From NCBI GenBank assembly GCA_016191015.1, contig JACPPM010000090.1:1-63203 (forward strand): DNA of 63,203 bases, read 5' to 3'. The stretch comes from Acidobacteriota bacterium. GTDB taxonomy: Bacteria > Acidobacteriota > CAIWXX01. The position numbers and the translations under genes are program-made. Of this stretch, positions 21,063 to 59,962 are shown piece after piece (position 1 is the first letter of the stretch; each line of letters begins with the position of its first letter). Under the pieces are notes generated by a model. It had not been told where the DNA came from. It ran no database searches and worked only from the letters and a program-made list of their open reading frames with translations.

Positions 21063-21408
21063 TGTCCAACTCCTCATTGTGATTCACCGCCGGCCCGTTG
21101 AGAAGGGGGCTCCGGATCGGCGGCGAACGGATCGCGACATCGGCTTCGATCACCGCCGCCAATCACCTGTCAATCTCCTCCGTCCACCGGGTTAGTCGTG
21201 GTGGATTGCGGTTCCTTACTCGTGGCAGCCTGCAAGCGCGCCGATGTGACGCCGATCACGGAGTGACCGAGACCGCTGTTCTCACGGTCGAATCTACGTC
21301 CGAACGGGTCTATATCGAGCCGCTCACGATTGGATCGACCAGGTGAATCAGTGCTCGTTGCGATCGGCGCAGTGAAGCGCGAGAATGTGGTCAGGCAGGG
21401 TCACAACG
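21063..21408. other. Intergenic region between divergent msrA and the PEP-utilising enzyme gene
   Basis: About 345 bases. No gene, no repeat of the dispersed families and no strong palindrome seen; promoters for both directions are presumably here. Confidence 0.4.
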
Positions 21409-23877
21409 ATGTCAATTTTGCCCTTGGAAGAGCTGAGTGTTCAGGGCGAGAGCGCGTTCGGTGGGAAGGCGTGCGGGCTGGCTCGCCTGATCGCCGCCGG
21501 CGCCAGTGTTCCCGCCGGGTTCGCCGTCAGAGCCACCGCGTCGGAGTGGTCGGCTGAGCTGAGAGGAGAATTCGAGAAGAGCGTCGCCGACTTGCTGCGA
21601 CTGGGGCCGGTCGCCGTGCGATCCTCTGCTGTTGGCGAAGACTCGGCCACACGGTCATTCGCAGGATTGCTCGAAACGATCCTCGACCTCTCGACGCCCG
21701 CGGCGGCGCTCGGTGCAGCTACCCGCTGCATCCAGGCCGGGCGCAGCCAGCGAGTGCGGGAGTATGCCGGGAGCGAGACGCCGCTGGCCGTTGGGATCGT
21801 CGTTCAGACCATGGTCTCGGCGCGTGCCGCCGGCGTGTGCTTCACGCGGGATCCATCGGGTCGGGACGGGGGGCTTGTGATCGAAGCCGTCGTCGGCCTC
21901 GGTGACAAGCTGGTATCGGGTGCTGAAACGCCCGAACGCTGGCGCGCGTACCGCTCGGGTCTGGGTGGCTGGGAGTGTTTGCCGGAGGAGCGACGAGGCG
22001 TGCTGTGCGGGGATGACGTAGAGTCGATCTCGGCTGAGGCGGATCGAATCGCTACTGCGATCGGATACCCGCTCGACCTCGAATGGGCGTTCGATCCTAC
22101 GGGCACTCTGTGGTGGCTCCAGGCACGGCCGATCACGGCGGCGCGGCCGGCACCCTCCTACATGATCCAGCGCTCATGCCAGGATGCGAACGACGGCCCC
22201 GTCACGGTCTGGTCAAACTGGAATGTCCGCGAAACGCTTCCCGACCCGATGTACCCGCTGACATGGACCTACTGGCGCGACGTGCTGCTTCCGGTTATCA
22301 CCCACCAGGTCACCGGGATTCCGCGTTCGTCGGAGCTTCTCCGGCAGCACTACGGGCTCGACCTGATCAACGGCAGGATCTACTTCAACATGAACGCGCT
22401 GCTGGCGGCCCCGCTGCTCGGTCGCCTCAGCAAGCGGATGCTCGCGATCATGGACTCGCGGACCGGCGCGACTATGGACCGGCTTCTGGCGGCCGGGGCA
22501 CTCCGCCGGCGCCGACTTGCCGGATCGCACGTCCTGCTGATCCCGGAATTGCTGAAGGCGACGCTGCTGAGCTTGCTTCGCATGGCAACCGTCGTCCGAC
22601 CACGGCACGCTCTCGCCGTGCTGGAACAGGATGCCGTCGCCGTCGATCGGCGCCCCGATGTCAGAAGGCTTTCGAAATATGAGCTCCTCCATGAGATGCA
22701 GCTCTGGGGACGGCCTGAGTGCCGCCGGCTCCTCGCCGGCCTACAGATGGAAGCGGTGGCAGGGATCATCTATTTCGCGGCCGCCCGGATGTATCGTGCG
22801 TATCCGGAGGCGTGGCAGAAGTTGACAACCGGCATCTCCGCGAATCCGACGACGCAGATTTCGCTTGGGGTCGATGCACTCGCTGACGCCGCGATACCCC
22901 TATTCGTGGTCTTTCGAGAGACGCGCACAACGCCCGAGCTCATGCGACGGCTCGAAGTCGAACCGGGCGGCCCGCAGTGGCTGGCGCAGCTGCGTGAGTT
23001 CCTGTCACGTTTCGGGCACCGCGGGCCGATGGAGTTCGACCTGGGAGCGTCGCGGTGGGCCGAAGACCCGACGATGATCATCGAGCTGGTTCGGATGCAG
23101 CTCGAGACCCCACGGGCCGAGAGCGTAGCTGCCCGCATGGAGCGGCTCGGGGCCGCGCGGCGCCGCGCCGTGGAGCAGGCTGTCTCCACCGCACCGCTCT
23201 GGCGGCGCCCGATAATGCGAGCGCTGGCCTGTCTGGTCGAGCTGTACATGCCGCTGCGGGAAGCCCCGAAGCATTATGGGGTGTTCGTCTTTCGACGCAT
23301 CCGGCTCGCCGCACTCGAGCTGGGAAGGAGATTTTGCCAAAACGCCGTGCTCGCGACTCCCGAAGAAGTGTTCTTCATCGAATATCGTGAGCTCGAGGCG
23401 TTGGTCGAAGGCCAGAGTCCACCGCCCGGTCTTCAAGATCTCATCCATGTGCGTCGCGATCAGCTCGATCGCTTCCGCCGAGAACCGGCGCCCGATGTCC
23501 TGAGGTCCGATGGCGTGCCCGTCGTAGAAGATCGAGCGGGGGGAGGAAGCAGTTCACTCGACGGCGTGCTTCACGGGACCCCGGTCTCTGCGGGTGTAGC
23601 CACCGGCCCCGTTCGCGTCCTATCGGAGCCCGATCCTCGGGCCATGGCCGAGGGGGATATCATCGTCATGAAATTCGCCGATCCCGGATGGACGCCCCTG
23701 TTCCCACGATCACGTGCGGTCGTGATGGAGGTCGGGGGGCTGATGTGCCACGCGGCTGTCGTCGCACGCGAGATGGGGATCCCCGCTGTTTTCGGAGTAG
23801 CCGGCGCCACCAGTGCGCTTGCCGACGGGCAAGTGGTCCGCGTCGACGGAGCCGCCGGCACGGTCACGCCGCTGTGA
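21409..23877 (+). CDS. PEP/pyruvate-binding phosphotransferase (rifampicin phosphotransferase / PEP synthase-like)
   Basis: 822 residues. N-terminal PPDK-type ATP-grasp domain: AFGGKACGLARLIAAGASVP, PVAVRSSAVGEDSATRSFAG, ACGVCFTRDPSG-type loop (AAGVCFTRDP), LEWAFDPTGTLWWLQARPIT. C-terminal swivelling phospho-His domain: MAEGDIIVMKFADPGW, VVMEVGGLMCHAAVVARE (His carries the phosphate), GIPAVFGV. The middle 400 residues replace the PEP-binding barrel of true PEP synthase, as in rifampicin phosphotransferases, which phosphorylate small molecules with the beta-phosphate of ATP. Length fits that family. ATG 21409 begins MSILPLEEL; GCAGGG upstream is weak. The stop overlaps the GTG of the hydrolase gene, so both act together. 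Substrate unknown; antibiotic modification is one option. Confidence 0.8.
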   Translation: MSILPLEELSVQGESAFGGKACGLARLIAAGASVPAGFAVRATASEWSAELRGEFEKSVADLLRLGPVAVRSSAVGEDSATRSFAGLLETILDLSTPAAALGAATRCIQAGRSQRVREYAGSETPLAVGIVVQTMVSARAAGVCFTRDPSGRDGGLVIEAVVGLGDKLVSGAETPERWRAYRSGLGGWECLPEERRGVLCGDDVESISAEADRIATAIGYPLDLEWAFDPTGTLWWLQARPITAARPAPSYMIQRSCQDANDGPVTVWSNWNVRETLPDPMYPLTWTYWRDVLLPVITHQVTGIPRSSELLRQHYGLDLINGRIYFNMNALLAAPLLGRLSKRMLAIMDSRTGATMDRLLAAGALRRRRLAGSHVLLIPELLKATLLSLLRMATVVRPRHALAVLEQDAVAVDRRPDVRRLSKYELLHEMQLWGRPECRRLLAGLQMEAVAGIIYFAAARMYRAYPEAWQKLTTGISANPTTQISLGVDALADAAIPLFVVFRETRTTPELMRRLEVEPGGPQWLAQLREFLSRFGHRGPMEFDLGASRWAEDPTMIIELVRMQLETPRAESVAARMERLGAARRRAVEQAVSTAPLWRRPIMRALACLVELYMPLREAPKHYGVFVFRRIRLAALELGRRFCQNAVLATPEEVFFIEYRELEALVEGQSPPPGLQDLIHVRRDQLDRFRREPAPDVLRSDGVPVVEDRAGGGSSSLDGVLHGTPVSAGVATGPVRVLSEPDPRAMAEGDIIVMKFADPGWTPLFPRSRAVVMEVGGLMCHAAVVAREMGIPAVFGVAGATSALADGQVVRVDGAAGTVTPL

Positions 23878-57063: not shown

Positions 57064-58116
57064 ATGCGAGCACACCGGATGCTTTATGCAGCAGCGGTCG
57101 TGCTGGTCGCTTCAATCCGGGCGGCGCAGTCAGAGGAGTCCCGACCGGTCGAAGAGTACGTGCTCGGTGTCAGCTATCTGGCCGCGCTCTCGTCGAGCGT
57201 CGATGCTGAAGGTGACATCCGGAGGCTCGCGCGGCTCGGATACAACCATCTCTGGATCTGGGCGACGTATGACGTGCCGTCCGCCCAAGAGGCATCGATG
57301 GTGGACAAGAACGGGAAGATCCGCAAAGGCCCGGCCGCGCGCCTCGATGCGATCATCGGGCTCGCCGGCGCCAACGGCATGACGATCAACCTGACGCTCG
57401 ACCCGGAAATGCACGTGCCGATGTGGCGAGGGAAGACCCCGCCATTCGAGACGTACGAGAATGCCGTTCGCAACGTGGCGAAATGGCTGCGAGCCAACGC
57501 CAACTACAAACGGTACCAAAACGTCACGGTGAATGTGTGCAACGAATGCGTCATCAACTGGCGTCGCGGAGTCACGGGCGAAGGGGTGACGAAGCTGATG
57601 AAACACTATGGCGGCCGGGACCTGGCAGAGCATCCGGCCGTGGCGATCCAGGAGCTTTTCGACGCGGCCAATGAGGGTCCGGGAAATCCGATCCGCGTCT
57701 TCGTGTCGCTGGGCTTTCCGGATGAGGCAGTGCCGAAGGCCCAGGCAGCGGCACTGTATCGCGCCCTCATGCCGTACGGCGGCCGTCTGCTGGCCGCTCC
57801 TCACTTCGACCGCACCTGCGCGGACTGGTACAAGAAGACCGGCGAGCGCATCCGCGAATTCCGGAATCTTCTCGGGGTCGACGCCGACATCTACCTGCAG
57901 GAGGAGAACCGGCGCCACTACAAGAAGATCCAATGCGACATCCAAGTGGAGCACTACAAAACAGCTGCCTGCCAAGCCAAGCAGGAAGGCGCATGGGGAT
58001 GGAACTTCCAGTCGCAGGCCGGCTTCGGTGAATCGGACAGTTTCTTCGGTGGGCTGGACAGCATCGAGAAGGAGGCAGTGGAGACACTCCCCGCCGGCCT
58101 CACAGAATGCCCCTAG
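57064..58116 (+). CDS. Secreted TIM-barrel-like protein, putative glycoside hydrolase (cassette 2)
   Basis: 350 residues with a signal peptide (MLYAAAVVLVASIRAAQS). Paralogue of 26617: YVLGVSYLAALSSSVDAEGD, GYNHLWIWATYDVP, MTINLTLDPEMHVPMW, YQNVTVNVCNECVINW, GGRLLAAPHFDRTCADWYKK, VDADIYLQEENRRHYKK, WGWNFQSQAGFGESDSFFGG all align. Glu161 in CNEC follows an Asn as in the NE pair of clan-A glycosidases; Glu280/281 in QEEN is the nucleophile candidate; Trp311/313 could line the sugar site. Cysteines 159, 162, 252, 291 and 303 match those of the other copy. Not assignable to a named GH family by eye. Confidence 0.7.
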   Translation: MRAHRMLYAAAVVLVASIRAAQSEESRPVEEYVLGVSYLAALSSSVDAEGDIRRLARLGYNHLWIWATYDVPSAQEASMVDKNGKIRKGPAARLDAIIGLAGANGMTINLTLDPEMHVPMWRGKTPPFETYENAVRNVAKWLRANANYKRYQNVTVNVCNECVINWRRGVTGEGVTKLMKHYGGRDLAEHPAVAIQELFDAANEGPGNPIRVFVSLGFPDEAVPKAQAAALYRALMPYGGRLLAAPHFDRTCADWYKKTGERIREFRNLLGVDADIYLQEENRRHYKKIQCDIQVEHYKTAACQAKQEGAWGWNFQSQAGFGESDSFFGGLDSIEKEAVETLPAGLTECP

Positions 58117-58254: not shown

Positions 58255-59562
58255 CTAGAAGTTTCCCTTCGGCAGCAGATCGACCCAGTTATCCGGCAGG
58301 CTGACCCTGTAGCCTTCCGAGTACTCAGCACGATAGTCATCCCAATTCGATCCCATGTAGATCCTGCTCCCTTTCGTGTTGATCGCCGCGAAGGCCTCCG
58401 CGAAGTAGTTCTTGTCGCCGGTGTAGTCGAGTGAGGTATAGGCGTGCGTATGAGCGATACGCCAGACGCGCGGTTTCTTCTTCAACTCGACCATGAAAAG
58501 TTGAGTGTCCATCCAGGAATGCTTCGATGTGCCGGGAGGGAGGTTTCTCGATCCGTATGTCGAGACCAGGACCCAGCCTGGCGTCTGGGCGCAGTTGCCC
58601 GAGAAGTGCAGGCCGATATCCGGGTTCGTCGTAAAGGGTATCTTCACGAGCCTGGTCTCCTTTCCGGTCGTGAGATCGGACATTGCGATGCAGTCGTTCG
58701 AAACGTTTTGATAAACGAGAACGTCCTTCCCATCGTCCGTCCGCGCGAAGTCGCCGTGCCCATTGGAGCCTGTGGTGAGGCTGAGGACTTTGCTGAGGTC
58801 CCTTGGGAGGATCTGCGGAAACAGCAGATCGTCGTATCCGACGATGCAGTGGTTCCCCGACATATCCATGCCGACCCAATTCACCTTGTCCAGGAACCCT
58901 GTGCTCTTCCGCGCGACGATCTGGTCGAGCTGTTTGTCGTAGACGACAATCGACACGAGCTGCCAGGATTCATCGACGACTCTGAATGCCCAATAGCGGC
59001 GGTCCAGCGAGGCGTCACCCTCGCTCCCCGTCGTCAGAAACGCACCACCCGGAAACTCTCCGCTGAAGTCGTGGATCGGCGCCACCTTCTTGGTGCCGGT
59101 GTGGTAGCTCCGAAAGGTCATATTGTTGACGAAGTAGAAGACCTTCGGATCGGTGGCATCCCACCGTGGCTCCGGCTCCTGACCTCCGCTGTCGAAGATC
59201 TTGAGCTGGCGGATCTTCTTGAACGTCCGAGCATCGTACAGGTACCAGGCCGCGGAATTGCCACGGAGCACCAGCAGCGTTCCATCGCTGTTCTCCGGAT
59301 CCGATTTCGCGTACTCGTTCTGGATGCCGGGACCGATGTACTTGTCGGCAGTCTTGTCGGTGATTCGCGTGACGGTGGTGTGGAAGATGGGGTCAAGTAT
59401 GGCGCCGCCCTTCTTCGGCATCGGGATGTCCGGCGGGGCGTAGTACGCCGTCCCCATCACAAACTGGAAATCCTGCCGGTCACCACGCATCGTCGCAGTC
59501 CAGACCATCGTGAGGACGAGGAGGCCGATAAGGCTCCCCGCAGCTCTGCAGACGTTTCTCAT
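58255..59562 (-). CDS. Secreted beta-propeller-like protein (oligogalacturonate-lyase-like repeats)
   Basis: 435 residues with a signal peptide (AAGSLIGLLVLTMVWTATMRG). Recurrent beta segments (GTLLVLRGNSAAWYLYDARTF, AFRVVDESWQLVSIVVYDKQ, VLVYQNVSNDCIAMSDL, RIAHTHAYTSLDYTGDKNYF) recall TolB/oligogalacturonate-lyase propellers. HDF, GHGDF, HAY and HFSG histidines could bind a metal, but no catalytic set is certain. GGAGG before ATG 59562 fixes the start. It converges on cassette 2 and may belong to the same glycan function; that is a guess from position. Confidence 0.7.
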   Translation of the reverse strand: MRNVCRAAGSLIGLLVLTMVWTATMRGDRQDFQFVMGTAYYAPPDIPMPKKGGAILDPIFHTTVTRITDKTADKYIGPGIQNEYAKSDPENSDGTLLVLRGNSAAWYLYDARTFKKIRQLKIFDSGGQEPEPRWDATDPKVFYFVNNMTFRSYHTGTKKVAPIHDFSGEFPGGAFLTTGSEGDASLDRRYWAFRVVDESWQLVSIVVYDKQLDQIVARKSTGFLDKVNWVGMDMSGNHCIVGYDDLLFPQILPRDLSKVLSLTTGSNGHGDFARTDDGKDVLVYQNVSNDCIAMSDLTTGKETRLVKIPFTTNPDIGLHFSGNCAQTPGWVLVSTYGSRNLPPGTSKHSWMDTQLFMVELKKKPRVWRIAHTHAYTSLDYTGDKNYFAEAFAAINTKGSRIYMGSNWDDYRAEYSEGYRVSLPDNWVDLLPKGNF

Positions 59563-59962
59563 GATTGCCTCCGCCACCCGTGGCACAGGCCGGCGCTGAT
59601 GCCGACCCATCATCCGGAGTAACGTCAATGCAGGCGCGATCCCTCAGATGGGTCCGTAATTGGCCGCGAGCAATCTCTACGTTCCTCGCGTCCGTGCCCC
59701 GCACTATCTGCTCGCCGAAGTGCTCCTTGCCTTCTGCCCGCGCCGGTCGGTCTACGCGGCGAGGCGGGCCATACTGCGAAATGCCGCCCAGAGCCAGCTC
59801 GATCATGCGCTCCAGAAGCAGCTCCTGCAATCCGATTTCATGGGAGGCATCGTCCTGAGGAGCCTCAACCACGAGTGCTGCCGTGTCGCGGCTGAGGCCC
59901 GCGACCAGCCTGCAAGCGCATCTCGCGGGCGGTGCGGTTGGCCGAGAGATCGGCTACCTTGG
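59563..59962. other. Intergenic region with a fragment shared with 62157
   Basis: About 400 bases with no intact gene. Bases 59759-59795 share a 37-base stretch (CATACTGCGAAATGC inside) with 62157-62193; read on the minus strand both give AAFRSM-RLA, so this may be a scrap of the same decayed gene. Confidence 0.45.

Follow-up and report, generated by a model that had tools for sequence, protein, structure and literature searches.

A stretch of Acidobacteriota DNA of 63,203 nucleotides (contig JACPPM010000090.1; hereafter the window) encodes two paralogous proteins, P0001 and P0002, which a first-pass annotation had described as clan-A-like barrel proteins with candidate catalytic glutamates and possible founders of a new or very remote glycoside hydrolase family. 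The locus raises the question of whether these proteins are glycosidases and, if so, to which enzymes they are related. P0002 is the only further copy of P0001 in the genome, both copies lie within the window, and no description of their lineage was found in the literature searched, mostly openly accessible papers. The paralogues are 52% identical over 342 aligned columns, and the motifs NVC[NT]EC and YLQEEN, on which the annotation had built its case, are indeed present in both. It had also listed five matching cysteines (159, 162, 252, 291 and 303); all five match, but the number was too low, since a sixth, C349 (C377 in P0002), matches as well, so that all six cysteines of P0001 are common to P0002. 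Identical residues fill 180 of the 346 aligned positions, nine Glu and eleven Asp among them. Invariance between two such sequences is therefore weak evidence, and for this reason the alignment was widened to take in 24 relatives found in genomes of the phylum. The features under discussion are collected in Table 1.

Table 1. Features of the two barrel genes and their propeller neighbours, with positions in the window
Feature	Position	Strand	Basis
P0001, 350 aa, predicted secreted clan GH-A (GH5-like) barrel	57064..58116	+	ORF, profiles, model, alignment
P0002, 383 aa, paralogue of P0001	26617..27768	+	
Asp-box/BNR (Sortilin-type) β-propeller gene, 30 bases upstream of P0001	54805..57033	+	
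Asp-box/BNR β-propeller gene, 4-base overlap with the start of P0002	24632..26620	+	
W64, strand 2; Arg in 22/23 relatives	57253..57255	+	alignment; role of Arg from PMC6160142
C159-N160-E161-C162, end of strand 4; candidate acid/base Glu between two Cys	57538..57549	+	computed from ORF start
H247-F-D-R250, after strand 6; His and Arg invariant in 26/26 sequences	57802..57813	+	
Y277-L-Q-E280-E281-N282, end of strand 7; candidate nucleophile E280	57892..57909	+	

Relatives of the pair are sparse. Scans of genome contigs with P0001 and with A1 yielded no close relatives, the one other genome of the class that was examined gave no match (1/2 genomes matched, namely the window's own), and tblastn searches of plasmids with P0001 and with the relative L022 gave no match. 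A two-sequence profile of P0001 and P0002 matched eight of 396 phylum genomes, its own included, at E 0.1 or better. The matches examined were L012 and L004 in genome G236 and L005 in genome G032, the five others having E values of 0.01-0.07. The two weak matches in G236 turned out to be whole GH5-like proteins. L005 (E 9.6e-4) was dropped as a leucine-rich-repeat-type protein, as judged by eye. A five-sequence profile reached E 1e-4 in six of the 396 phylum genomes, again counting its own, among them G103, G155, G274 and G377. When one G236 relative was searched over 193 genomes of the G236 class, 28 places in 19 genomes were found. These correspond to the 24 relatives once L037, L038 and L039 are counted as second pieces of L023, L025 and L024, respectively, and once L031, which phmmer did not recover at 1e-3, is left out. 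Among the relatives, L027 is a fragment, L021 and L028 have internal stops in their matched frames, so that only their open stretches were used, and L029 and L030, which lack W313, are the least certain alignments of all rows.

Identity between the relatives and the window proteins is about 19-26%. Direct phmmer comparison of the window proteins with the relatives gave scores of up to 42.7 bits for P0001 and 49.9 bits for P0002, and P0002 matches genome G455 at E 1.9e-8; homology is thus direct and does not run through intermediates alone. In an IQ-TREE phylogeny (267 columns, 25 sequences), a branch with a length of 1.3 substitutions per site sets P0001 and P0002 apart from all other sequences, and their grouping with L022, L023 and L025 against the rest has a support of only 65. 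Several uncharacterised proteins of the phylum are now tied to a testable catalytic hypothesis. One GH5-like group of relatives in the G236 class (L014-L019, L032-L036 and L040) has a YLQEP-type motif, and several of its members carry a C-terminal DUF7910 domain; 13 members scanned had no NCBIfam name and only weak PF00150 scores, and 13 members of A4 gave no NCBIfam match at E up to 0.001.

In the wider alignment the candidate residues stand out clearly. Of 20 acidic residues common to the paralogues, only E161 (23/23) and E280 (24/24) never vary among the relatives. H247 and R250 are each present in 24/24 relatives, and these four are the residues invariant in every sequence with a letter at the position. 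The corresponding glutamates of P0002 are E187 and E306. Other positions are nearly constant: N160 is Asn in 24/25 sequences, the exception being Thr186 of P0002, W313 is found in 24/26 sequences and W255 in 25/26. E281 is Glu in only 4/24 relatives and Pro in most. The expectation that Glu would occupy the catalytic positions of clan A is consequently upheld for E161 and E280 and fails for E281, and it is E280, not E281, that is the candidate nucleophile. E161 and E280 are well supported as the catalytic pair.

The fold agrees with this assignment. An AlphaFold model of P0001 made with 13 sequences is a (β/α)8 barrel (pLDDT 85.4, pTM 0.85), and that of P0002 has the same arrangement (pLDDT 82.5, pTM 0.81). 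DSSP on the P0001 model places strands at residues 33-37, 62-66, 107-111, 154-159, 212-214, 275-279 and 312-315, with two short strand stretches just before H247. The motifs had been predicted to lie on strands 4 and 7, and E161 and E280 do lie just after strand 4 (154-159) and strand 7 (275-279), respectively, with E280 following its strand directly. A (β/α)8 barrel with conserved Glu at the ends of these two strands is characteristic of clan GH-A, and the His after strand 6 and the Trp on strand 8 are in addition features of GH5. Fold and profile searches returned mainly clan GH-A glycosidases, in keeping with the annotated fold. The best Foldseek match of the P0001 model was a GH5_4 endoglucanase (E 3.6e-8). 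A shared barrel is not conclusive by itself, because TIM barrels are alike and a psicose epimerase (E 1.2e-6) and pyruvate carboxylase are also among the best 50 Foldseek matches. In VIA-align the best match of both models was the GH140 apiosidase 8t9w (P0001, Z 22.6, 278 aligned, 3.1 Å; P0002, Z 22.9, 283 aligned, 3.2 Å), although identity in the structural alignment is 9-10% and the close rows include GH5 enzymes too. GH5 and GH1 enzymes came next at Z of about 20-21, including the GH5 mannosidase 4lyr against P0001 (Z 21.3, 280 aligned, 3.6 Å), and Z spanned 19.7-22.9 across the best 50 matches of both models. BT_1012 (5msy) also belongs to GH140.

The sequence profile is more specific than the fold match, and it places GH5 enzymes first. 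With a 13-row profile, the first solved structures matched were GH5 enzymes, headed by the GH5_4 lichenase 4x0v (E=8.8e-7). In that alignment the family's N-E pair falls on lichenase residues 187-188 (counted by hand), and 5h4r, a structure of the same enzyme, is titled as an E188Q mutant. P0001 is also the genome's only match to PF00150 (Cellulase), at E=7e-5 over residues 54-162, ending just past E161. Its score of 22.9 bits lies just below the cut-off of 23.5 (23.7 with neighbours in frame), P0002 fails to match PF00150 at E up to 1, and P0001 alone reaches no better than E=0.13 against solved structures; these values count against a GH5-like glycosidase. A match to PF11756/PRK10410 ('nitrous oxide-stimulated promoter'), below cut-off and confined to the Cys-containing stretch at residues 155-209, was rejected as chance.

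Taken together, P0001 and P0002 are probably secreted retaining β-glycosidases of clan GH-A that form a remote GH5-like lineage, with E161 the acid/base and E280 the nucleophile. The proposal of a new or very remote family therefore stands in part: the pair is very remote from named families but is not without relatives, being joined to GH5 and clan GH-A through intermediates. Such enzymes would cleave β-glycosidic bonds, and their clan membership suggests that configuration would be retained. The acid/base, E161, would act from the strand-4 end and the nucleophile, E280, from the strand-7 end; H247 and R250 would position both, and W313 on strand 8 may form the floor of the -1 subsite.

The closest parallel is with the GH5_18 mannosidase CaMan5_18, in which Glu140 is the acid/base and Glu259 the nucleophile, Arg41 holds Asn139 and Glu259, His215 supports Glu140 and the active site also contains Trp295 (PMC6160142). 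P0001 corresponds by position at E161, E280, N160, H247 and W313, and its E161-E280 spacing of 119 residues equals that of Glu140 and Glu259 (PMC6160142). With GH5 enzymes in general (4x0v/5h4r and CaMan5_18) it thus has in common the barrel, a strand-4 acid/base candidate preceded by Asn, a strand-6 His, a strand-7 nucleophile candidate and a strand-8 Trp. The window proteins differ from GH5 in the additional invariant R250, six lineage-specific cysteines and the borderline Pfam score, and from CaMan5_18 in that Trp217, two residues after the strand-6 His, is replaced by Asp in P0001 (PMC6160142). A further departure concerns strand 2, where both P0001 and P0002 have Trp (W64 in P0001) in place of the GH5 Arg. 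In P0002 the Asn that precedes the acid/base is replaced too, by Thr. The strand-2 Arg is, to our knowledge, a defining feature of all GH5 enzymes. The GH5-like proteins of the G236 class (L013-L040), in which E161, H247, R250 and E280 are invariant and which by alignment have the same barrel, keep this Arg in 22/23 cases, lack the six cysteines and in several cases carry the C-terminal DUF7910 domain.

Given that Arg41 of CaMan5_18 holds both the Asn and the nucleophile (PMC6160142), its replacement by Trp weighs against a glycosidase. Together with the Asn to Thr change in P0002 and the added cysteines, it means that activity may have been altered, weakened or lost. P0001 and P0002 could accordingly be non-catalytic or weakly active GH-A barrels that now serve for glycan binding only, perhaps as partners of the propeller, and the very long branch separating them from all relatives also points in this direction. 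Nevertheless, both copies retain the two candidate Glu, H247 and R250 although the positions around them have changed, and loss of catalysis is regarded as unlikely. If the pair is active, it would define a new subfamily of GH5-like enzymes or a new family of clan A in which the surroundings of the nucleophile are altered, and would offer a test of whether a GH5-type site can do without its strand-2 Arg.

The cysteines were suggested by the first-pass annotation to form disulfides or a metal site. C159 and C162 flank E161, and C252 and C291 lie on the loops that follow strands 6 and 7, according to DSSP on the model. The six have no counterparts in the relatives (each kept in 0-1), except for C159 in L025 (1/23); being restricted to P0001 and P0002, they are a lineage addition outside the catalytic core. 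The N-terminus of the proteins, as judged by eye, is signal-like, from which we infer secretion, and disulfides are then the simplest use for the six cysteines. Disulfides added in this lineage are the most likely explanation. A metal-thiolate site, in which C159, C162, C252 and C291 would bind a metal such as zinc beside the catalytic Glu and change its chemistry, would fit the presence of all six cysteines in both copies and the predicted location of four of the six where strands end C-terminally or on the loops that come next. GH127 and GH146 β-L-arabinofuranosidases, whose catalytic domain is an (α/α)6 barrel, offer an analogy, and no more than that, in the clustering of cysteines near a catalytic-type Glu. 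In these enzymes, whose catalytic domain is called atypical, a zinc-bound Cys in a Cys3-Glu site has been shown to be the nucleophile (PMC10728902), whereas P0001 and P0002 keep a candidate Glu nucleophile. An even number of cysteines in a secreted protein fits disulfides better, the relatives do not keep them apart from the single C159, and E280 is still present, all of which make a metal site highly improbable. A wider version of the idea, that the active site was rebuilt in one lineage, with Trp for Arg, a Cys-bracketed E161, two more Cys contributed by the loops of strands 6 and 7, and a redox-sensitive or metal-binding thiol cluster that controls or joins catalysis, is considered very unlikely. 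A short Glu-Glu distance would not settle which residue is the nucleophile: in HypBA1, carboxylates 4.9 Å apart first backed the classical mechanism, and the nucleophile proved to be a Cys (PMC10728902).

The gene neighbourhood gives some indication of the setting in which such barrels may function. Each paralogue lies behind an Asp-box/BNR propeller gene, the two propellers being 34% identical to each other, and propeller plus barrel therefore looks like a duplicated two-gene unit. This pairing suggests a two-component extracellular sugar-processing cassette, in which the barrel and its upstream propeller might act jointly on an extracellular polysaccharide. This link counts for less because the genome is rich in such propellers, with 35 stretches on 17 contigs (counted by hand) matching NF045728 at E 1e-10 or better, none of them above cut-off in that genome search. 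The propeller upstream of P0002 scores 225.6 bits over the whole protein, against a cut-off of 175, with the NCBIfam entry 'F510_1955 family glycosylhydrolase', a name that is an annotation.

Among the nearest relatives, L023 has radical SAM and glycosyltransferase genes close by, L022 is near PMT-type and NAD-epimerase genes, and L025 is beside methyltransferase and GDSL-lipase genes. These neighbours hint at exopolysaccharide work in those genomes, with the window copies set differently. They would accord with P0001 and P0002 being clan-A transglycosylases, or glycosidases that process exopolysaccharide made by the cell itself, and not polymer degraders, as would the lack of any other PF00150 match in the genome. 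In the window itself the barrel genes adjoin propeller genes instead of genes for polysaccharide synthesis, and this alternative to the remote GH5-like β-glycosidase seems extremely unlikely. GH5-like relatives at L049, L051 and L054 have genes for glycosyltransferases, PMT-type membrane transferases and epimerases nearby, a setting like that of exopolysaccharide loci. Elsewhere in the window, positions 21385-23877 (+) encode a PEP-synthase-like protein with PPDK_N and PEP-utiliser domains that scores far below the rifamycin phosphotransferase cut-off. Downstream of P0001, positions 58255-59628 (-) encode a secreted-looking protein of 457 aa, propeller-like by eye, with only a weak GH43 match (E 0.02).
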